DNA from: Elephas maximus indicus
Lineage: Eukaryota > Chordata > Mammalia > Proboscidea > Elephantidae
NCBI RefSeq assembly: GCF_024166365.1
Contig: NC_064831.1
Span: forward strand, 82,968,268 to 83,032,267
Direction of reading: 5' to 3'
Length of the DNA: 64,000 nucleotides
Position 1 is the first letter of the stretch, and every line of letters begins with the position of its first letter. Made by a program: the position numbers and the translations under genes. A model generated the notes under the pieces. It had not been told where the DNA came from. It made no database searches and was given only the letters and a program-made list of their open reading frames with translations. This document shows, piece by piece, positions 8,186 through 62,455 of the stretch.

Positions 8186-9860
8186 TGTATTAGTTTCCTG
8201 TTTGTTGTTCTTGTTGTTAGGTGCTGTCAAGTCAGTTCTGACTCATGGCAAACATATGTACAACAGAGCAAAATACTGCCTGGTTCTTCTGCTCCAGCCT
8301 CACAATTGTTGCTATCTTTGAGCTCATTCTTGCAGCCACTGAGTCAATTCATCTCACTGAGGGTCTTCCTCTTTTTTGCTGACCCTCTACTTTATCAGGC
8401 ATGATGTCCTCCTCCAGGGACTGGTCCCTCCTGATAATGTGTCCAAAGTACATGAGATGAAGTCTCGCCATCCTCACTTCTAAGGAGCATTCTGGCTGGA
8501 CTTCTTCCAAGACAGATTTGTTTGTTTTTCTGGCAGTCCATGGTATATTCAATATTCTTCGCCAACACCATAATTCAAAGGCATAATTTCTTCTGTCTTC
8601 CTTATTCACTGTCCAGCTTTCACATGCACATGACGCAATTGAAAACACCACGGCTTGGGTCAGATGCACCTTAGTCCTTAAAGTGACATCTTTGCTTTTT
8701 AACACTTTAAAGAGGTCTTTTGCAGCAGATTTGCCTAATGCAATGCATCGTTTGATTTCCTGACTGCTGATTTCATGGGTGTTGATTGTGGATCCAAGTA
8801 AAATGAAATCCTTGACACCTTCAATATGTTCTCAGTTTATCATCATGTTGCTTATTGGTCCAGTTGTGAGGATTTTTGTTTTATGTTGAGATATAATCCA
8901 TACTCAAGGCTGTAGTCTTTGATCTTCAGCAGTAAGTGCTTCAAGTCCTCTTTGTTTTCAGCAAGCAAAATTGGGTCATCTGCGTATCACAGGTTGTTAA
9001 CGAGTCTTCCTCCAATCCTGATGCTGTGCTCTTCTTCATAGTCTAGCTTCTCGGATTATTTGCTTAGCATACAGATTGAATAAGTATGGTGAAAGAAGAC
9101 AACGCTGACATACACCCTTCCTGATTTTAAACCACGCTGTATCCTCCGGTTCTGTTTGAACAACTGCCTCTTGGTCTATGTACAGATCCCACAGGAGCAC
9201 AATTAAGTGTTCTGGAATTCTAATTCTTGCAATGTTGTCCATAATTTGTTATGATCCACACAGTCTAATGCCTTTGTATAGTCAATAAAACACAGGTAAA
9301 CATCTTTCTGGTGTTCTCTGCTTTCAGCCAAGATCCATCTGATATCAGCAATAATATCCCTCATTCCATGTCCTCTTCTGAACGCAACTTGAATTTCTGG
9401 AAGTTCTTGGTCAGTGTAGTTTCCTAGGGCAGGCATAAAAAAAATTACCACAAACTAGGTGGCTTAAAACAACAAAAATTTATTCTCTCATAGTTCTAGA
9501 GGATAGAAGTTTGAAATCAGAGAGAGAGCAGGGCCATGCTTTCTCTGAAGGCTCTAGAGGAGAATCTGTCCCATGCCTTTCCCTTAGTTTCTGGTGTTGC
9601 CAGCAATCCTTGGTGTTCCTTGACTTATAGAAGCATCACTTCAATCTCTGGTTCAATCATCATGTGATTTTCCCTCCATGTCTGTGTCTGTATCTCTTCT
9701 TATATGGCCATCAGTCATATTTGATGAGGGCTCACCCCATTGACCTCACTTTAACTTAATGACATCTGCAAAGACTCTATTTCCAAATAAGGTCACATTT
9801 AAGGTACTGGTGGTTAGAACTTCAACAAACATTTTGGAGGACAGGAGTCAGACCACAACA
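8186..9860 (-). mobile_element. MLT1-type LTR (MaLR), split by an RTE element
   Basis: On the minus strand the LTR runs from TG (complement of 9860) to CA (complement of 8186). It shows the MLT1 plan: 'ggacttcaac'-like text, 'ggtcattaagtt'-like text, 'aataaatttttgttg' and 'aagccacctagtttgtgg' (compare plus 9450-9485 and 9720-9860). Only 14 bases lie to the left of the insertion (8186-8199). The rest (9417-9860) lies to the right. MLT1 belongs to the old ERVL-MaLR group. No internal viral genes are present. Confidence 0.75.
8200..9416 (-). mobile_element. RTE-clade LINE, 5'-truncated, broken reverse transcriptase
   Basis: This is a non-LTR retrotransposon of the RTE type, lying on the minus strand. 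Three open pieces remain. Residues from 9203-9451 contain motif A (FIDYTKALDCVDH). The piece at 9036-9242 contains GVCQRCLLSPYLFNLYA, where the usual QGC has become QRC. The catalytic YADD codons are at the complement of 8975-8986 in another frame. The C-terminal domain at 8349-8705 has CESWT and WCWRRIL. Frameshifts and stops separate the pieces, so it is dead. The 9-bp duplication TAGTTTCCT at 8191-8199 and 9417-9425 bounds it. The 3' end (complement of about 8200-8290) closely resembles the tail of the SINEs in this window, which suggests that relatives of this LINE moved them. Confidence 0.9.
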
Positions 9861-16805: not shown

Positions 16806-17134
16806 TATAACCTCCTTTAGCTACACTCATTCATTCAACACTAACAGATCCCTATTGACGGCCGAGTACCTGCCAAGACTCTGAACCAGGATGACTACAT
16901 GCTGGGATACAGAGATGAAGAAAGTAAGCACAGTCCTTGCCCTAGAGCAGTGGTTCACATTCTGTGGCCAGACCAGCAGCATCAGCAACTGGGAACTTAT
17001 GAGAAATGAAATTCTCAAGCTCCATTTCAGACCTACTAAATCGGCATCTCTGGAGTAGACCCAGCATTCTTTTAACAAGCCATCCAGGGGATGCTGATAC
17101 GTGCTGGAGGAGTTGGAGACCCACTGCCCCAGAG

Positions 17135-19170
17135 GAGTCCCTGAGTGGTGCAAAAGGTTAAAGCACTCTACTGCTAACCGGAAGGCTGGTGGTTCAAGTC
17201 CACCCAGAAGTGCCTCAGAAGAAAGGCCTGGTGATCCCCTTCTGAAAAATCAGCCATTGAAACCCTCATGGAGCACAGCTCTACTCTGACACAGGCGGGA
17301 TCACCATGCCCCAGTCAGCCATTGAAACCCTCATGGAGCACAGTTCTACTCTGACACAGGCAGGGTCACCATGACCCAGTCAGCCATTGAAACCCTCATG
17401 GAGCACAGTTCTACTCTGACACAGGTGGGGTCACCATGACCCAGTCAGCCATTGAAACCCTCATGGAGCACAGTTCTACTCTGACACAGGCGGGGTCACC
17501 ATGACCCAGTCAGCCATTGAAACCCTCATGGAGCACAGCTCTACTCTGACACAGGCGGGGTCACCATGGCCCAGTCAGCCATTGAAACCCTCATGGAGCA
17601 CAGTTCTACTCTGACACAGGCGGGGTCACCATGACCCAGTCAGCCATTGAAACCCTCATGGAGCACAGTTCTACTCTGACACAGGCGGGGTCACCATGAC
17701 CCAGTCAGCCATTGAAACCCTCATGGAGCACAGCTCTACTCTGACACAGGCGGGGTCACCATGACCCAGTCAGCCATTGAAAACCTCATGGAGCACAGTT
17801 CTACTCTGACACAGGCGGGGTCACCATGACCCAGTCAGCCACTGAAACCCTCATGGAGCACAGTTCTACTCTGACACAGGTGGGGTCACCATGACCCAGT
17901 CAGCCACTGAAACCCTCATGGAGCACAGTTCTACTCTGACACAGGCGGGGTCACCATGACCCAGTCAGCCATTGAAACCCTCATGGAGCACAGCTCTACT
18001 CTGACACAGGCAGGGTCACCATGACCCAGTCAGCCATTGAAACCCTCATGGAGCACAGTTCTACTCTGACACAGGCGGGGTCACCATGACCCAGTCAGCC
18101 ATTGAAACCCTCATGGAGCACAGTTCTACTCTGACACAGGCGGGGTCACCATGACCCAGTCAGCCATTGAAAACCTCATGGAGCACAGCTCTACTCTGAC
18201 ACAGGCGGGGTCACCATGACCCAGTCAGCCATTGAAACCCTCATGGAGCACAGTTCTACTCTGACACAGGCGGGGTCACCATGACCCAGTCAGCCATTGA
18301 AACCCTCATGGAGCACAGCTCTACTCTGACACAGGCGGGGTCACCATGACCCAGTCAGCCATTGAAACCCTCATGGAGCATAGTTCTACTCTGACACAGG
18401 CGGGGTCACCATGACCCAGTCAGCCACTGAAACCCTCATGGAGCACAGTTCTACTCTGACACAGGCGGGGTCACCATGACCCAGTCAGCCACTGAAACCC
18501 TCATGGAGCACAGTTCTACTCTGACACAGGCGGGGGTCACCATGATCCAGTCAGCCATTGAAACCCTCATGGAGCACAGCTCTACTCTGACACAGGTGGG
18601 GTCACCATGACCCAGTCAGCCACTGAAACCCTCATGGAGCACAGTTCTACTCTGACACAGGCGGGGTCACCATGACCCAGTCAGCCACTGAAACCCTCAT
18701 GGAGCACAGTTCTACTCTGACACAGGCGGGGGTCACCATGACCCAGTCAGCCATTGAAACCCTCATGGAGCACAGCTCTACTCTGACACAGGCGGGGGTC
18801 ACCATGACCCAGTCAGCCATTGAAACCCTCATGGAGCACAGCTCTACTCTGACACAGGCGGGGTCACCATGACCCAGTCAGCCACTGAAACCCTCATGGA
18901 GCACAGTTCTACTCTGACACAGGCGGGGTCACCATGACCCAGTCAGCCACTGAAACCCTCATGGAGCACAGTTCTACTCTGACACAGGCGGGGTCACCAT
19001 GACCCAGTCAGCCACTGAAACCCTCATGGAGCACAGTTCTACTCTGACACAGGCGGGGTCACCATGACCCAGTCAGCCACTGAAACCCTCATGGAGCACA
19101 GTTCTACTCTGACACAGGCGGGGTCACCATGACCCAGATTCAGCTCAGTGACAACCGGTTGGGTCTAGAG
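17135..19170 (+). mobile_element. AfroSINE-type SINE with internally expanded array
   Basis: The head (17135-17246) is a normal SINE start: 'gagtccctgagtggtgcaaa', 'aaccggaaggctggtgg', 'ttcaagtccaccc' and 'gaaaggcctggtgatc'. The tail resumes after the array at 19135 with 'cagctcagtgacaaccgg' and 'ttgggt', which fits the normal SINE ending (compare 24845-24881). Everything between is 29 tandem versions of one internal 65-bp segment. One SINE of about 200 bp has thus grown to about 2 kb. Confidence 0.85.
17247..19134 (+). repeat. Minisatellite: 29 units of 65-66 bp, each ending in an ERE-like palindrome
   Basis: The units begin with CAGTCAGCC (AAATCAGCC in the first) and end with GGTCACCATGACC. 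Unit starts fall every 65 bases from 17247, except three 66-base units (starts 18482, 18678 and 18744) with an extra G before GGTCA. The total of 1888 bases equals 29 x 65 + 3. Units differ mainly at ATTG/ACTG, AGCTCT/AGTTCT and GGCGGGG/GGTGGGG. The palindrome GGTCANNNTGACC is perfect in 26 units. It fails in the first unit, in the unit starting 17507 (TGGCC) and in the unit starting 18482 (TGATC). Frames open through the 66-base units by chance. A regulatory role is unproven. Confidence 0.95.
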
Positions 19171-19592
19171 AAGTGCACAATCCAGCAAACATAAACAAGC
19201 AAGTGTAATGGACCGGGAAGGTACAGCCACTAAAACGGCCACCCCAGGAAGCTGTGAAAGCCCTTCGAGGGGCACTTGCCCTGAGACGTAACATCAGGAA
19301 AGACTCCACCAGGTAAGAGTCACACCTGAGCTGGGCTCTGGAGAAAGATGAGATGACCAGGCAAAGCAGGGCAGGGAAGAACATCCCAGCATCTGAAAGA
19401 GAAAAGTGTAAAGGCCAGAAGTCAGAGAGGTTCAAGCGTGCCCAGAAAACTTAGTCATTCAGGTCGCTGGGTAAACTACTGTGAAAGAGGAGGGGTACGC
19501 AGAAACGAAAAGAGAGACGAAACGGGGGTCAGATCCTGAAACCTTCAAATACCGATGAGGAGTTCGTTTCTAGAACTGTGAGAAGTAACGGC
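19171..19592. other. No recognised feature
   Basis: Unique-looking sequence between two SINEs, with no recognised gene. Confidence 0.4.
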
Positions 19593-19795
19593 AAGGTACC
19601 AGTTGCCATCGAGTTGACTGACTCATGGACACCCCATCTGTGTCAGAGCAGAACTGTGGGTCATAGGGTGTTCAACGGCTAGCTTTTCAGAAGTAGATCA
19701 CTAGGTCTTTCTTCTGAGGCACCCCTGGGCGGGTTTGAACCTCCACCCTTTCAGTTAGCAGCCAAGGGCATTGACCATTTGCATCACCTAAAGAC
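19593..19795 (-). mobile_element. AfroSINE-type SINE, longer subtype
   Basis: Reverse-strand copy: tail 'gttgccatcgagttgact' on the left, the middle 'gaagtagatcactaggtc' with 'ttcttctgaggcacccctg', then head 'gtttgaacctccaccc' and 'agttagcagccaagggc'. The middle block marks the same subtype as the array-bearing SINE. Confidence 0.85.
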
Positions 19796-19898
19796 TATAT
19801 TTGAAAGACAAGAAGGAGCTATAGAAATGTTAGTCATTATTAGTGATATTTAGAGTCATTGTCACCCCATTGATTATATAGTAGAATTTCCAAGCAGC

Positions 19899-20788: not shown

Positions 20789-21326
20789 TGGGATGGTTAA
20801 GGTTGTGTGTCACCTTGGCTGGACCGTGATTCTCAGTGGTTTGGCAGTTATGTAATGACATAATTTGGCAGTTATAAAATGATATCGTCATCCTCCATGA
20901 TGTGATGTGATCAGCCAATCAGTTGAAAGGGGAGTTTCTTTGGGGGTGTGGCCTGCATCCAATATATATATTTGGACATTCTGGCAAAGCTCACTTGCTT
21001 GCTCTGGATCCTACATCCAGCTCATCATCATCTGCCCCATGGTTCTGCATACTTGAGCCAGCTGCCTGCCATACTGCCTGGTGATACAGGGATTCATCAG
21101 CCTCCGCAGCCTGTGAGCCAGTGGCCTGCCATTGTACCTGCTGATCTTGGGATTCGTCGGCCTCTGTAGTCCGTGAGTCAGTAGCCTACTGTCTAACCTG
21201 CTGATCTTGGGTTCATCAGCCCCTGCAGCTATGTGAGTCAAGAGAAGGCTCCAGCCTGACACCTGACCCACAAGACTTGGAACTTGCCAGCCTCTACAAC
21301 TACATGAGCCATTTCCTTGAGATAAA

Positions 21327-24040: not shown

Positions 24041-24077
24041 TATAACAGAATTCGCCACGGGGTCTTTTAAATGTAGT

Positions 24078-24881
24078 CCCTGGGGAGTGCAAACGGTTAA
24101 CTCACTTGCTTCTAAGGGAAAGGTTGGAGGTTTGTGTCCACCCAGAGGTGCCTCAAAAGAAATGCCTGGCCCTGTTTGGAGCAAAGGAGAATGAAGAAAA
24201 CCAAAGACATGGAAAGATTACTCCAAAGGACTAACGGACCACAACTACCACAGCCTCCGCTAGACTGAGTCCAGCACAACTAGATGGTGCCCAGCTACCA
24301 CCACCGACTGCTCTGACAGGGATCACAAAAGAGGGTCCCAGACAGAGCTGGAAGAAAATGTAGAACAAAAGTCTAAGCCACAAAAAAAGACCAGACTTAC
24401 TGGTCTGACAGACTGGAGAAACCCTGAGAGTATGGCCCCTAGACTCCCTTTTAGCTCAGTAATGAAGTCACTCCTGAGGTTCACCCTTCAGCCAAAGAGT
24501 GGACAGGCCCATAAAACAAGACTAAATGGGCACACCGGCCCAGGGGCAAAGACGAGAAGACAGGAGGGGACAGGAAAGCTGGTAATGGGGAACCCAAGGT
24601 CTAGAACAGGAGAGCATTGACATGTCGTGGGGGTGGAAACCAATGTCACAGAATAACATGTTTATTAACTGTTTAATGAGAAACTACTCCGTAAACCTTT
24701 ACTAAAGTACAATTTTAAAAAAAAGAAAGGAACAAATACATGTAAATGTAAAAAAAAAATAGTCCTGGCAATCTACTTCCAAAAAATCAGCCATTGATAA
24801 CCCTATGGATCACAGTTCTACTCTGATGCACATGGGGTCACCATGAGTTGGAATCGATTTGATGGCAACCGGTTTGGGGTT
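24078..24881 (+). mobile_element. AfroSINE-type SINE split by an L1 insertion
   Basis: The left part (24078-24170) ends at 'agaaatgcctggc'. The right part (24764-24881) resumes with 'cctggcaatctacttcc', then 'aatcagccattgataacc', 'tggggtcaccatgagttgg' and 'gatggcaaccggtttgg'. CCTGGC is present on both sides of the break. This copy shows the normal SINE sequence corresponding to the array unit at 17247-19134, with GGTCACCATGAGT where the array has the full palindrome. Confidence 0.85.
24171..24763 (+). mobile_element. Lineage-specific L1 3' end inside a SINE
   Basis: It begins in the 3' UTR ('ggagaatgaagaaaacc') and follows the 3' UTR at 13874-15374 ('gactgagtccagcacaacta', 'agtcactcctgaggttcac', 'caccctt') to 'actaaagtacaatttt' and A-rich sequence. 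The CCTGGC duplication (24165-24170 and 24764-24769) bounds it. Confidence 0.85.
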
Positions 24882-25459: not shown

Positions 25460-25622
25460 ACCGAAAGTCTGAAGGTTCGAGTCCACCGAGAGGCACCTTG
25501 GTAGACAGGACTGGCCATCTACTTTCAAGGTATCAGCTGTTGAAAACCCTATGAAGCACAATTCTATTCTAAAACACATGGGATCACCATTAGCCAAAAT
25601 CAACTTGACGGCATTTGGTTAA
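25460..25622 (+). mobile_element. SINE lacking part of its head
   Basis: It shows 'gttcgagtccaccgagagg', 'atcagctgttgaaaacc', 'gggatcaccattagcc' and 'aatcaacttgacggca'. The first 30-40 bases of the head are absent or unrecognisable. Confidence 0.8.
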
Positions 25623-25923: not shown

Positions 25924-26934
25924 TTCACATATAAAAAGGGACCAGTAATACCTACTGCCTCATGGGATCAAGTACGAACTGTTGCAAAGTGCCTAGTAAC
26001 ATCCCTGAAACAAGGCAAATGCCCAAAAAACATCTACTATTCACGGTATTGATTCCCTTCGTGCCAGGAGTAAAAAAACCAGCTATAAATACAGGGCAAT
26101 CAGGAAGAATGGGTCCAGCAGTATAACATCAGGCACCACTAGATGGCAATAAAGATGCTAAGTAATTGGTTATTAAGAGAATCCTTTTTAGAACCAAGTA
26201 TTCTGTTACTCAGAATTTCCTCCTTCATTCATTAAACAAATATTTATTCAATGCCTACTATGTACCAGGTAGGCAGCTAGGATACAAAAGTCAGTGAAGG
26301 AAGATGCAGCACCTGCCCACATGGAACTTGTGGTCCAGGTGGGGAGATGAACAAAAACATCAACGAATCATCAATGATCAATGGTAGTAAGCACTGCGAC
26401 AGTATATAAGAAGGAGAACCGACCTGGTTAGGGAGGGGGAAGCATCCTTGAGAAAGAGATGATGGAGTCAAGATCTGAGGAAGAACAGCAGTTGGTAGCT
26501 GGTGCGGGGTGGGAAGGGAGTGCACAGGAGGAGGGAAGAGCCTACCAAAGGTTCCCAGGTGAGCAGGCAGATGGATGTTCCTGTGGCTAGAGCCCAAAGA
26601 GTAGGGGCAGCAGCACTCGCGATGCTGCTGGCGGGACAAGCAGGGGCCAGGCCACACAGGGCCTCATACGCCTTACTCATGTTGGGGATTAGGGCCTGGA
26701 GAGCTGCAGCAGGCTACTGAAGGGGAAGGGGGGTGACTTGACCAGATCTACATTGTGACAAGGTCATCTTGACTGCCTCGGGGATTCCACTGAAAAGGGG
26801 TCCAAGCAACACAGAGCTATTAAAGTCATGTGTTGCTTGATGTTCACAACACATTGTGTGAAATAGGACCTTATGTCATTAGGACCCTGCAAACACCAGA
26901 ACAGCAGTGCCTGGGAGTTATGTAAGTTGTCTGA

Positions 26935-32096: not shown

Positions 32097-32384
32097 TCCT
32101 CTCTCCCTCCGAATCGCTAAATAACCTTGAGCAAACGACCATCTCGGAGCTTCACTTTTCTGTTTTTAGGAGAGAGACAACTCCCATCTCAAAGGCTGTT
32201 GAGATTACATAAAATAAAGTATGTGCCTAAGGCACACATTTAAAAAATTAATATTGGTTTAGAGAGTAAATGTTTAAAAAAAAAAAAACTCACAGGGCAA
32301 GGAGAAAGGGCGGGGGATATCCCAATAACAGTGGTAAAAGGCAGATTTGGGATAAGTGGACGGATCCGTAGCCAAAGGCTAGCA

Positions 32385-33660
32385 AGGGTCACGAGCGCCC
32401 AGGTACAGTCTCAAAACTTGCCCTGCCCCCGCCCCTGTCCCCCAGCCTCGTCAACAGGGCGAGGGAGTGTGAAACCCCGCCGACCTCGTCCGGCTCCCCC
32501 TTGGACTTACGCCCGGGGACAAACGTCCCCCTCTACCACCCTGGCTAAACCTCTGTCCGCGACCCCCTCCTCTTAAGCCTCCCGCCCTGCGTCCCCTCTC
32601 CCCTAGGCCCCGCCCGACACCGCCCCGCCCCCTCCCAGATCCGCAAAGCGCCCCTAGCCCGGACCTGGGCTCCCCCATCCCCCGCCCCGCGCGGCCCCTT
32701 CCCGCGCGCACGACGCCCTCCCCACGCGAGTCGTCGGCCCCCACGGCCCACGGCGAGTCACTTCCCCCCGCCCCGCACTGCGCCCCAGACGGCGCAGCAG
32801 GAGGAAGCCGCGGGCCCGTGAACAGGCTCGGACCGAGGACTGGGTCTCAGATCCCGCGTGTGACCAGAGGGCGGAAGCCAGGACTGAAAACCAAGGTCGG
32901 GGTCTCGTTTTAAAAGTCTGAGGCATCAGGCACCGTCTACCTAGAAAGACCTCGGTACAGTGGTATTGCGTTTCATTTTTAAGTCGCCTGTCAAATGCAG
33001 ATGACCGGGCCTCTAGCCCGTCTTTATCCAATTTGAGAAGCCTTCCTGCACATGACATCGGCCCACGAGGAACCACTCTTGCGTTGGCGGCTCGCTGCGC
33101 AGCGCTGACGTGCAGAGACCAGAGAAGGAAATGGCGGCGGGCGGCGGGCGGAACAGGGCGCGGCCGGGGCCCCGCGGCTGGCCGGCCACCAGGGGGCAGG
33201 CGTGCGTCTGCGTCCCTCGGCCGGCTGGAACCAGTCTGGCCGGAAGCCGGGCGGTGCCTTCGCTTCCGCAGCGATGCGCCACGTGGCCGGCCAGGAAGGA
33301 CAGAAGAAAACAACAAAATGGCGGCGGAGGCGGGGCCCGCCGGGCACCCCCTGCGGCCTAGTTTTCTTCAAAGGGCGGTGTTCGGGGGTCAGGGTGGCGC
33401 GAGTTGAGCGCTGTGCGGGAGCCTCCGGACTGAATGTGGGCTGGGGCAGCCGAGTGAAGCCGTAGGCAGCTTCACCTGGGTGGGTCGGAGCCCGGGCTCC
33501 AAGCCCTGGGCATGCTCGGGGACACTGCGGCGCGCTCCTAGTTGGCGGGCCGTTTGCTCGAAGCCGCCGGCCTGCTTCCCAGTCAGGGCTTGTTTTCATT
33601 TGTCGCTTGCGAGCGAGACGGCAGAAACGTTTTCCTCGGGGCTTTTTTCCTACAGCGGGG
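32385..33660. promoter_or_regulatory. CpG island, likely TATA-less promoter
   Basis: CpG dinucleotides are dense here and rare in the flanks. There are GC-box-type runs (CCGCCCC and CCCCGCC around 32610-32770). On plus there are AAATGGCGGC (33129-33138) and AAAATGGCGGC (33315-33325), matching the YY1 promoter motif, CCGGAAGC (33240-33247), an ETS type, and CACGTG (33280-33285). No TATA box is evident. YY1 motifs in this orientation usually lie just downstream of starts of genes on the same strand, so a plus-strand transcript starting near 33.1-33.3 kb is the first guess. A good minus-strand splice donor (GGGC|GTAAGT, complement of about 32509-32518) also allows divergent transcription. The gene it serves is unknown. 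Long open frames on both strands are expected from GC content alone. Confidence 0.8.
33186..33199 (+). promoter_or_regulatory. CTCF-type core motif in the CpG island
   Basis: CCACCAGGGGGCAG fits the CTCF core consensus CCASYAGRKGGCRS at every position. It lies between the two YY1-type motifs. CTCF binds such cores as an insulator and loop-anchor protein. Occupancy here is inference. Confidence 0.6.
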
Positions 33661-35275
33661 TTAGAGTGGAGTCCAGGAGAGTGCTAATTGAACTGAGAAG
33701 CATTTCCCTTCCTTCTTTGCAGCGGTTTTCGTTACCGTTTCCTGCCTTTGTTGAAAGGGTTGGAACCGCCTCCCTCCGAGATGGAGATAAATGGCGTTCT
33801 ACCGATCTCTAAAAGAACACCAAGCCCTCGATGTCTAGGCTTTCACGGAGCTCCCCACCCCGGCCAAGTGTTGGGGAAGGATTTTGTTTGCCTTGCAGAC
33901 TAGGGCTGCGAATGTGCGGCAGAGACTGAGGTTCTGTGGTTTTATATCAGCCATGTTGTACATTAAAAAAAAAAAAAAAAAAACTCGGTTGTTGTATGTT
34001 TTTAAATACAAGACGTGAGGAAACAAAATAGTCCAGTGTTCACGGCGTTCTGGTAAAGACCCGCAGCGGCCCCTGCGTATCGATGGCTCTGGAGCCGAAG
34101 GACTGAGCCCTTCGAGATCTGGCTGGACAACTGTCAGGCTCGGTTTCATTTCTTAACACCCGCCCCTTCTCTCTAAATAATTTGTCTTGTTTTACGTGAG
34201 TTTGAGATGTGCAAGAGTCACTGGGGGTAAAAATAGTTAACAAGCTACCCTAAGTGTGTAGTAGGTTTAGAATAAAGGGGATGTCTGTCTTTGGTTTCAT
34301 TTATAAATTTGTCGTTTTCAGAGTTAAGATACGGATTTTCTCTGGTTCTTGGCAAAGCAAATTGTTGGATCGTTGGCAAGGCTCTGAAATGATCTATTAC
34401 TGTTTGTTGTTTTTCTTAGAAATTAATAAAACTTGCCTCCCAAAGGTATAGGAGGTTTAATTAACAATTTCTAAATGTAATAAGGGTCCCGAATGAGGGC
34501 ATGCTACAGTGACACGGCTTGAGAAAGGCAGTCCTCTTTTTAGGGCATTGTGAAGGAACTCTTAGTGGTCTCCACAGATTGATAGGGAGTTTAACACCCG
34601 TGCTGTGATCAGAACTTCATTGCTATTAAATGATAGACTAGAAACGGTATGATGTGATCAGGAAAAAAAAAAAAAAGAGCTCAAAGCTTTTTTATTTTAC
34701 AGGTTAAATGTGGATTTTTGACCCAAGCAGAGGTTTGAGAGAATTTCCCCTTTGCCACTCCCTTTCGTTTCCCTGCTCTCAAAAGGTTTCTTTGCAGAAA
34801 AGTACATGATGAGGCAAAGAATGGCTGGGCAAAATGTCCAAAGGGCTCCTTTAAAAACTACGGGGGTAAAGAACCCTCCCTCTCTTCAGCCTGGGAAAAG
34901 AAGGCAGCTTCTTTAACAGCGTTGCCTTACAAAAAGCCGGCCCCTTTGTGTTCTTATATTTTACAGTGATTACCCCTTGTTTGTCTCTTTTTTACACATG
35001 GTTCAGATGGAACCTCTGGCAACTTTTTCTGCAAATGCTACTGACATATAGGAGCGCAAGAATTAGCATCCTCAGGCCTTAAATTGTTGGTCTCCACAAT
35101 CTCATTAACACTAGCTTCCTGTTAAGAGAAGATACTGTCTTTCAAATTTTAAAATACTTATTATAGCAAACTTGGTTTAAAAAAAAATTAAAAGAACCTG
35201 TACTCCAATAATTCCAAAATAATTGTAGATATAAAGTTTTTTGGAGGGGGAAGTTATACTGTGTGTATGATTTGT
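33661..35275. other. Repeat-poor DNA downstream of the CpG island
   Basis: This holds a 19-base A run (33965-33983), a possible splice donor TAC|GTGAGT at about 34194-34202 on plus, and otherwise no recognised repeat or coding segment. If the CpG island drives a plus-strand transcript, this would be its first exon or first intron. Confidence 0.35.
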
Positions 35276-46959: not shown

Positions 46960-47148
46960 TGTTAGCCAGTTGTGGTACAGTCGACTCTGATTCATGGAGA
47001 CCCCATGTACGCCAGAGTAGAACTATGCCCCATAGCATTTTCTGTGGCTGCTTTTTTGTAAGCAGATCACTAGGCCTTTCTTCTGGATAGACTTGAACTT
47101 CTAACTTTTCAGTTAGTAGCCTAGCACATGAATCACACACCCAGGGAT
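46960..47148 (-). mobile_element. AfroSINE-type SINE, longer subtype
   Basis: 'gtggtacagtcgactctg', 'agaccccatgtacgccaga', the middle 'gcagatcactaggcctttc' and head 'agttagtagcctagcac' with 'cacacccagggatgccc'. Confidence 0.85.
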
Positions 47149-55019: not shown

Positions 55020-55740
55020 GGTACATGATTTTTAATAGAAAATATATATACATAATAAAAGTCAAATAACACAAAGCATATTGTATCTAGTGAAAATGAT
55101 TCTTCATCTCACCTCTGCTCCAGTCCCCATCCCCTAAAACAACCTCTTTCTTGTATATTCAGCCGAAGATAATCTTGTTGTTAGCTGTCGTTGAGTTGCC
55201 TCCCATTCATGGTGACCCCATGCGCAACAAAAGGAAGCGCTGCCTGGCTCTGTGCCATCCGCATGATTGGTCGTAGATTGGACCGTCGTGATTCATAGGG
55301 CTTTCATTGGTTGATTTTTGGAAGTAGATCACCAGGCTTTTCTTCCTAGTCATCTTAGTCTGGAAAATCTGCTGAAACTTGTCCAGCATCAAGCAATACT
55401 CAAGCCTCCACTGACAGATGGGTGGTGGCTCTACATGAAGTGCATTGACCGGGAATCAAACCTGGGTCTCCCTCGTGGAAGGCAGGAATTACTACCACTG
55501 AGCCACCAATAGATATACATATAGGTATATATATTTTTAACCACACATATGGGCATATACTATACATACTATTCTGTACCTTCGTTTTTGGTTATAACTA
55601 ACAATATGTCTTGGAACTTACTCCTGGTCAATATCTAAAGCCCTTTTTCATTTTTGAAAGGACTGCAGAGCTTTCCATTGTAAGGCTGTGAAATAACCTA
55701 GCTAGCCAGTCCCCTATGATGGCCGTTGAGGTTGTTTCTA
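55020..55740. mobile_element. Ancient LINE 3' module split by a SINE
   Basis: Left (55020-55171): 'aatagaaaatatatataca', 'aagtcaaataacacaaagc' and 'cctctttcttgtatattc'. Right (55512-55740): 'atatgggcatatactatac', 'gactgcagagctttccatt' and 'cccctatgatggccgttgag'. It is the same module type as 22170 and 35280. Confidence 0.55.
55172..55511 (-). mobile_element. SINE with a glycine-tRNA-like head
   Basis: On minus the head reads 'ggtggctcagtggtagtaat', 'tcctgccttccacgaggga', then 'gtttgattcccggtcaatg'. It follows tRNA-Gly closely (A-box GGCTCAGTGGTAG, B-box GTTTGATTCCC). This differs from the head of the common SINE. The body is about 340 bases, and the tail ends 'caacgacagctaacaacaa', like the RTE 3' end and the other SINEs. 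It is a second SINE family sharing the tail. The tRNA part is not a functional tRNA gene because it runs into the SINE body and lacks a matched acceptor stem. Confidence 0.75.
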
Positions 55741-60029: not shown

Positions 60030-60359
60030 ATCTTAAGGCTTTTTAAAAGCCCAGCTTAAATATTCAATTCATTTACTTTGAAAACTTCTCAACAGGAAAC
60101 TCAAAACCTTGTTTAATAAATACGGAGTAATTTAGTTCCAGTTCAAATTAGGCTAGTAGGGAGAGAAGAGGGAAAGAAGGCTAGAGAAAATGGAGAGGGA
60201 GAAGGTGGCTTCTGGAAAAAAAAAGGAAGTTGACAGAGGTAAGAAGAAGAATGGAGTCCAACTGGAAAAGGAGAGAGAGTTGTGCAGACACAGGAAAAAT
60301 TCAAGTCTCTGGAGGTTTGCAAATGAGCGTGGGTCACTTCTTCTCCAAGAAAACACCAA
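60030..60359. other. Purine-rich stretch before the pseudogene
   Basis: GA-rich from 60160 to 60290. A plus-strand frame opens at 60190 and happens to run in frame into the pseudogene, giving a false fusion. No RPS2 similarity is seen before 60360. Confidence 0.5.
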
Positions 60360-61242
60360 ATGGTGGATCATGCAGGTGATATGGAAGAGCCTGGAGGCCC
60401 CGGGGGGCCCTGGAGTGGTAGACCATGGTGGTTTCAGTGGAGGCTTTGGCAGTGGCTTCCTGGTCTGGGGTCATGGACCTCACAGTGGCAAGGCCAAGGA
60501 CAAAGAATGGCTCCCTGTCACCAAACTGGGCCACGTGGCCAAGGACATGAAGATTAAGTCCCTGAAGAAAAACTGTCTCTTCTCCCTGCCCATCAAGGAG
60601 TCTGAGATCATTGACTTTTTCCTGAGGACATCCCTCAAGGATGAGGTTTTGAAAATTATACCTGTGGAAAAGCAGACGTGGGCTAGCCAGCAGACCAGGT
60701 TCAAGGCATTTGTCACCTCTTGAACTACAATGGCCACATCGATCTGGGTGTTAAGTTCTCTAGGGAGGTGGCCGCTGCCATCCACCGGACCATCACCCTG
60801 GCCAAGCTCACCATCGTCCATGTGCTGTGAGGCTACTTGGGGGACAAGATCAGCAAACCCCACCCAGTTCCTTGAAAGGTGACCAACGACTATGACTCTG
60901 CGCTGGTGTACCTCATCCCCAGCCCCAGAGGCATTAGCATGGTTTAGTCCCTTTACCTAAGAAACTGCTGCTAACATATTGATGACTGCTACAGGTTGAC
61001 CAGGGGCTGCCACGCCAAGCAATTTTGTCAAGGCTACCTTCAGCGCTATCTCTAAGACCAACAGCTATCTCACCCCTGATCTCTGAAAAGAGGCTGTGTT
61101 CACCAAGTCTCCTACCAGGAACTGAGCATCTTGTAAAGGCCCACATCAGAGCCTCTATACAGAAGAGCCAGGCTCCAGCTGTGGCCACCACATAGTGGTT
61201 TTTATACAAGAAAAATAAAGTGAATTAAGCCTGAAAAAAAAA
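60360..61242 (+). pseudogene. RPS2: Processed pseudogene of ribosomal protein S2
   Basis: This is an intronless, broken copy of the mRNA for the small-subunit protein uS5 (RPS2). The start codon at 60360 gives MVDHAGD and a PGGPGGP stretch. After a frameshift near 60410 come [52 protein letters not shown] and TRFKAFV. A TGA at 60721-60723 ends this frame, and further stops follow (for example near 60827). The remaining text still matches in order: YNGH, SYLTPDL, VFTKSPYQE and the C-terminal QAPAVATT-like codons before TAG at 61193. A polyadenylation signal AATAAA (61214-61219) and an A run (61233-61242) complete the retrocopy. The Arg-Gly repeat is shortened and largely lost. It cannot encode a working protein. 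Mobilisation by L1 is the usual route. Confidence 0.95.
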
Positions 61243-62256: not shown

Positions 62257-62455
62257 AACCAATTATCGTACAATCATCTTTGACTCTTGGTGACTGAACT
62301 AGAGCTAGTAGAACTGTGCTAAACAGGGTTTTCAATTTGATTTAGCAGAAGTAGATCACCAGGGTTTTTTTCTGAGGTGCATCTGGGTGGACTCAAATTT
62401 GCAACTTTTCTGTTAGCAGCTGAGCGCGATAACCATTTGCACTACCCAGGGACTT
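62257..62455 (-). mobile_element. AfroSINE-type SINE, longer subtype
   Basis: 'gtacaatcatctttgactc', middle 'gcagaagtagatcaccagg', then 'ggtgcatctgggtggactc' and head 'gttagcagctgagcgcg' with 'actacccagggactt'. Confidence 0.85.

Follow-up and report, generated by a model that had tools for sequence, protein, structure and literature searches.

The window analyzed here is a 64-kb stretch of elephant DNA (C17:82968268-83032267 of an assembly of 3,401,163,062 bases in 64 contigs, which was searched as a whole). It contains a tandem array situated within a SINE (Table 1). For positions 17250-19137, TRF gave a period of 65, 29.0 copies and 97% matches. This is the same, real array that the preliminary description of the window had placed at 17247-19134, with the phase offset by three nucleotides.

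Table 1. Positions in the window of the array, its palindromes and the SINE sequences at the locus
Feature	Position	Strand	Description	Evidence
Tandem array	17250..19137	+	Host SINE 3' core amplified to 29 units (65-66 bp)	TRF, unit table
Perfect GGTCACCATGACC palindromes (26)	17364..19134	.	One per unit, none in units 1, 5, and 20; 65-66 bp apart	
5' part of host SINE	17133..17249 (start approximate)	+		BLAST and MAFFT against dispersed copies in the window
3' tail of host SINE, ATTCAGCTCAGTGACAACCGGTTGGG...	19138..19175 (end approximate)	+		Alignment
Separate SINE copy	19598..19787	-	Single unexpanded unit; in-window reference	

The array units differ from each other by 2.9% on average in pairwise comparisons. 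An extra G brings units 20, 23, and 24 to 66 bp. The commonest variants, T8C (10 units) and T30C (9 units), are mutually exclusive within units, and the T8C units were found to concentrate toward the 3' end of the array (mean position 21.5, p = 0.001). A 22-mer spanning the junction between units had 25 matches in 3.40 Gb, all 25 of them inside the array. With 29 highly similar units, each longer than 20 bp, the array is a minisatellite, and its origin is local and confined to a single locus. Neither Rfam (gathering scores) nor tRNA scans gave a match at the array, and one 31-mer of the unit had no match in viral contigs. The copy number of units that are 97% alike is hard to assemble, and the array length could thus be an artefact of collapse or expansion. 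We find this very unlikely, since the units carry private as well as shared variants and the junction 22-mer is present at one locus only. The doubt concerns how long the array exactly is and not whether it exists. A 7-unit periodicity or duplication of higher-order blocks was also considered and discarded, as the run tests were not significant (825 to 1,655 of 2,000 shuffles reached or exceeded the observed value).

The perfect estrogen response element (ERE), GGTCANNNTGACC, was found in 26 of the 29 units and nowhere else in the 64-kb window; outside the array one site within one mismatch is located at 26762. In 100 dinucleotide shuffles of the window the perfect 13-mer occurred 0.07 times on average and at most once. 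If an ERE is defined by sequence as a perfect or near-perfect GGTCANNNTGACC, these 26 units would each carry one. The palindrome occupies unit positions 50-62, and its immediate flanks in the array are G and C (GGGTCACCATGACCC). The strongest natural EREs have A/T flanks. Exact search and the unit table confirmed the count of 26 exact palindromes, from 17364-17376 to 19122-19134, that was given at the outset. The remaining units, previously said to hold one- to three-base variants, deviate by one to two changes only (two in unit 1, one each in units 5 and 20). The CpG reported 4 bases before the palindrome in most units is indeed kept in 24 of 29, but at unit positions 47-48, where its C lies 3 bases before.

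By BLAST, the three longest window relatives of the host SINE head, on both strands, were 19684-19787(-) with 80% identity, 62340-62454(-) with 76% and 24075-24169 with 79%. The array unit matched the single-copy stretches 24787-24846 (87%), 19623-19680(-) (81%), 25533-25596 (75%), and 46992-47033(-) (79%). Fuller dispersed copies consist of a head, one unit and a tail; in the host SINE, head and tail are split by 29 units. These alignments show that the array unit is the 3' core of a SINE, with SINE head and tail on either side. Such homology to a dispersed element that remains on both sides marks it as a TE-derived minisatellite. Divergence from the host amounts to 20-24% for the three longest head matches among the dispersed copies, and to 13-25% for the unit. 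Since the units are only 2.9% apart compared to 13-25% for the dispersed copies, the array is either younger than the SINE or homogenized. An AfroSINE would be expected to have a tRNA-derived head with Pol III boxes. A sequence resembling the B-box consensus, GGTTCAAGTCC at 17191-17201, was read by eye in the SINE head, which gave no match with Rfam or ARAGORN. In the stretches compared, nothing convincing was found for a target-site duplication, the best candidate being an 8-mer with one mismatch (AGAGGAGT/AGAGAAGT). The host SINE is presumably AfroSINE-like. AfroSINEs are described as specific for Afrotheria (PMC11292518), which fits the mention of elephant in the preliminary description. 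The available parts of PMC2211313, PMC10671557, PMC3478180, and PMC1785376 mention neither tandem AfroSINEs nor this array. The host SINE (17136-17317) and the neighboring SINE (19615-19796) also form an inverted pair of 182 nt with 75% identity, 2.3 kb apart.

The palindrome equals the 3' core of the SINE, GGGGTCACCATGAGTC, with GT replaced by CC. The dispersed core has the form GGGGTC(A/G)CCATGAGTC. With A at the variable position, its left half-site is complete and its right half-site has three of five bases in place. Exact matches to CTGACACANNN plus core numbered 2,099 in the genome for the A form and 1,067 for the CpG form (controls 0), and the SINE is thus a high-copy dispersed repeat. 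Perfect sites in the SINE context ACACANNNGGGGTCACCATGACC, which is slightly looser than that of the precursor search and from which array units with other context variants drop out, numbered 26, with 22 in the array and four elsewhere (C6, C18, C22, and C26). Each of the four outside loci (3,023 bases) holds a single perfect site. In three of them the alignment covers most of the SINE, in one (L050) the 3' part only; two share CCCAG with the array and the other two have ACCT. The scarcity of perfect sites in the SINE context, four outside the array against 2,099 precursors, indicates that the sites are rare variants of the SINE and that their number in the array comes from local multiplication.

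Genome-wide we identified 2,083 perfect palindromes in 3.40 Gb (being palindromic, the pattern gives 2,083 matches on either strand, and these are the same sites). The human genome was reported to contain about 2,310 (PMC2568806). The reversed pattern, used as control, gave 3,974 matches, which makes the perfect ERE about half as common, and a first-order model of the window background predicts about 3,112 perfect sites. If anything, the motif is under-represented in the genome. The density of perfect sites in the array is about 22,500 times the genome mean. Pairs of perfect sites separated by 37-67 bp were found 26 times, 23 of them in the array, two in a 40-bp minisatellite on C2 and one on C1 (reversed control, 2). 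Pairs with gaps of 6-36 bp were found three times, all in the C2 array (reversed control, 1), and there were none genome-wide with gaps of 68-98 bp, nor for the reversed control. The random expectation for the three gap ranges combined is about 0.26 pairs. For gaps of 6-98 bp the array is thus the densest perfect-ERE cluster found in the genome, in agreement with the exceptional site density first proposed for it. The C2 array ranks second with four perfect sites. It is found in the region of C2:5537493 (positions 1299-1650 of locus L010) and has four perfect GGTCACGGTGACC in its last units. Like the array described here it is a tandem repeat carrying perfect EREs, but it has another unit and only 8.8 copies, the remaining ones being imperfect.

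As no other place in the genome was found to have perfect sites so dense at these gaps, the array could be imagined to act as a sink that titrates the estrogen receptor away from other sites, as was suggested when it was first described. However, its 26 sites are only 1.2% of the 2,083. Receptors number in the tens of thousands in responsive cells and far exceed 26 dimers. We therefore hold a sink to be implausible and extremely unlikely.

A search for two SINE cores TCTACTCTGAC spaced by 40-70 bp gave 153 + 127 = 280 matches compared to 0 and 1 for the reversed-pattern controls. Clustering by eye of the 100 matches listed of these 280 resulted in at least 17 tandem loci, located on C1-C8, whose units measure about 22 to 81 bp among the matches listed. 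Twelve of the 17 have at least two listed pairs; the five with one pair may be simple duplications. One of the loci, C1:29331599-29334550, is a long array in which this SINE core is repeated every 65-66 bp, with other breakpoints and at least 35 pairs among the matches listed. The perfect EREs listed for C1, whose order runs past that place, include none in it, which makes it a natural control. In the pair searches with gaps of 6-98 bp, no clustered perfect EREs were found in other tandem SINE-core repeats either. Tandem SINE cores thus recur without clustered EREs, which argues that minisatellite growth, and not a gathering of sites, produced the density.

Minisatellite birth from the SINE core is therefore recurrent, as it is for Alu in human, where 23% of minisatellites were reported to be TE-derived and one AluJo contains an array of 17 x 52 bp (Ahmed and Liang, 2012; PMC3389668). 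In both cases an internal segment of an old SINE was amplified locally after insertion to many units. The elephant array differs in its SINE family and in that the amplified segment has a perfect nuclear-receptor palindrome. A literature search by title and abstract opening, covering few subscription journals, found no paper on an ERE-bearing minisatellite among those listed. The initial account of the array had motif, count and density right, but missed its SINE origin and the recurrence of tandem SINE cores.

We proceeded to look for signs of function. Variable positions were found at three of the 10 specified palindrome positions and at six of the 55 others (Fisher p = 0.13). Conservation of the palindrome within the array does not exceed that of the other unit positions, and no extra constraint is seen, although this is weak evidence in an array that is young and homogenized. 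The unit has a single CpG, which accounts for five of the 31 substitutions, all five being C>T or G>A, and this CpG is lost in five of 29 units. Loss by transition only, as for a methylated CpG, suggests germline methylation. The observed/expected ratio of CpG is 0.17 in the array and 0.29 in the rest of the window. The constraint test, the CpG decay and the CpG ratio weakly point to a passive, presumably methylated repeat. Three units of 65 bp span 195-197 bp, which is near the nucleosome repeat, and every third site would then share its nucleosome phase.

The array could nevertheless be a working estrogen-responsive cluster enhancer, in which receptor dimers occupy many of the 26 perfect sites at once and array length tunes a nearby gene. 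Units of 65-66 bp, each with one site, and a CpG island about 13 kb away (32.2-33.9 kb) would suit such a role. The engineered PRL-HeLa prolactin array is reportedly larger and contains sites for other factors. It has many ER-responsive units at one locus, as the elephant array may have. It differs in being engineered and in containing a promoter, and this multi-copy promoter-enhancer array visibly recruits GFP-ER (PMC5509144). In MCF7 reporters, a tandem of two perfect 13-bp cores responded strongly to estradiol (PMC2568806). On the other hand, the same source estimates that less than 5-10% of perfect sites are bound in human MCF7 cells, and the Alu-borne EREs that it discusses were not functional there. 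These Alu elements (Norris, 1995; Mason, 2010, as cited in PMC2568806 and PMC9301316) resemble the host SINE in supplying estrogen-response sites, but are dispersed, whereas in the array one site is multiplied in tandem. Together with palindrome positions that are no less variable than the others, a CpG decay suggestive of germline methylation, and an expansion that needs no selection for sites and happened to other tandem SINE cores without clustered sites, this makes a cluster enhancer quite unlikely in our view.

The more general proposal that the array is a binding platform is possible, yet gains no support from the sequence, given the absence of extra palindrome constraint and the low bound fraction in MCF7. 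That it would be a natural, SINE-born platform, whose 26 sites bind receptor together in some ER-positive tissue and whose length varies between individuals, seems unlikely to us. If true, the hormone response would scale with copy number.

We consider it likely that the array is a minisatellite which formed within a single copy of an AfroSINE-like SINE, with estrogen sites that hitchhike and are mostly silent. In the order we propose, CpG decay from GTCGCC to GTCACC and a rare GT-to-CC change would have given one SINE copy a perfect palindrome. Tandem duplication would then have begun within this copy, and unequal exchange or slippage may have enlarged and homogenized the array to 29 units, carrying the palindrome along. 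The repeat, presumably CpG-methylated in the germline, would have mostly no function. Should chromatin open in an ER-positive cell, each unit is expected to bind a receptor dimer on its own, as any perfect site can, and the units may then jointly act as an enhancer. Local growth predicts likeness between adjacent units; neighbor similarity showed no significant excess over shuffled unit order (1,149 of 10,000 shuffles were as low), which counts against this explanation. Nor does the junction fit a simple crossover between the two flanking 5-bp TCAGC repeats (17250 and 19140) as the starting event, since this would produce a 67-bp unit and the array has one of 65 bp.

The origin of the array is ordinary and the outcome extraordinary, and a passive reading is favored over function. 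The common SINE is two substitutions from the motif; one copy gets there and minisatellite growth multiplies it. This would be a route to a very dense cluster of hormone-receptor motifs without selection for binding. The 26 near-identical sites at fixed spacing, with site-free tandem SINE cores as controls, offer a test bed for whether receptor recruitment in native chromatin can follow from site number alone.

The window has several other features. The CpG island (32201-33950) reaches a GC content of 0.72 and an observed/expected ratio of 0.96 and is probably a promoter; a weaker GC-rich stretch is found at 49.25-50.05 kb. Residues 80-186 of an ORF at 60160-60720 (+) match ribosomal protein S2 (uS5; E = 3e-39), and the ORF is probably a processed pseudogene. 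Of the 179 ORFs listed, 10 were compared with Pfam and gave a sub-threshold RVT_1 only, from a reverse transcriptase remnant at 9206-9454 (-) (E = 6e-5, below the Pfam cut-off) that we take to be RTE/BovB-like. A 60-bp tandem repeat (3.1 copies, 74% matches) is located at 21054-21237, and ARAGORN predicted a tRNA-Gly (TCC) at 55440-55512 (-), which is either a gene or a SINE-like relic.
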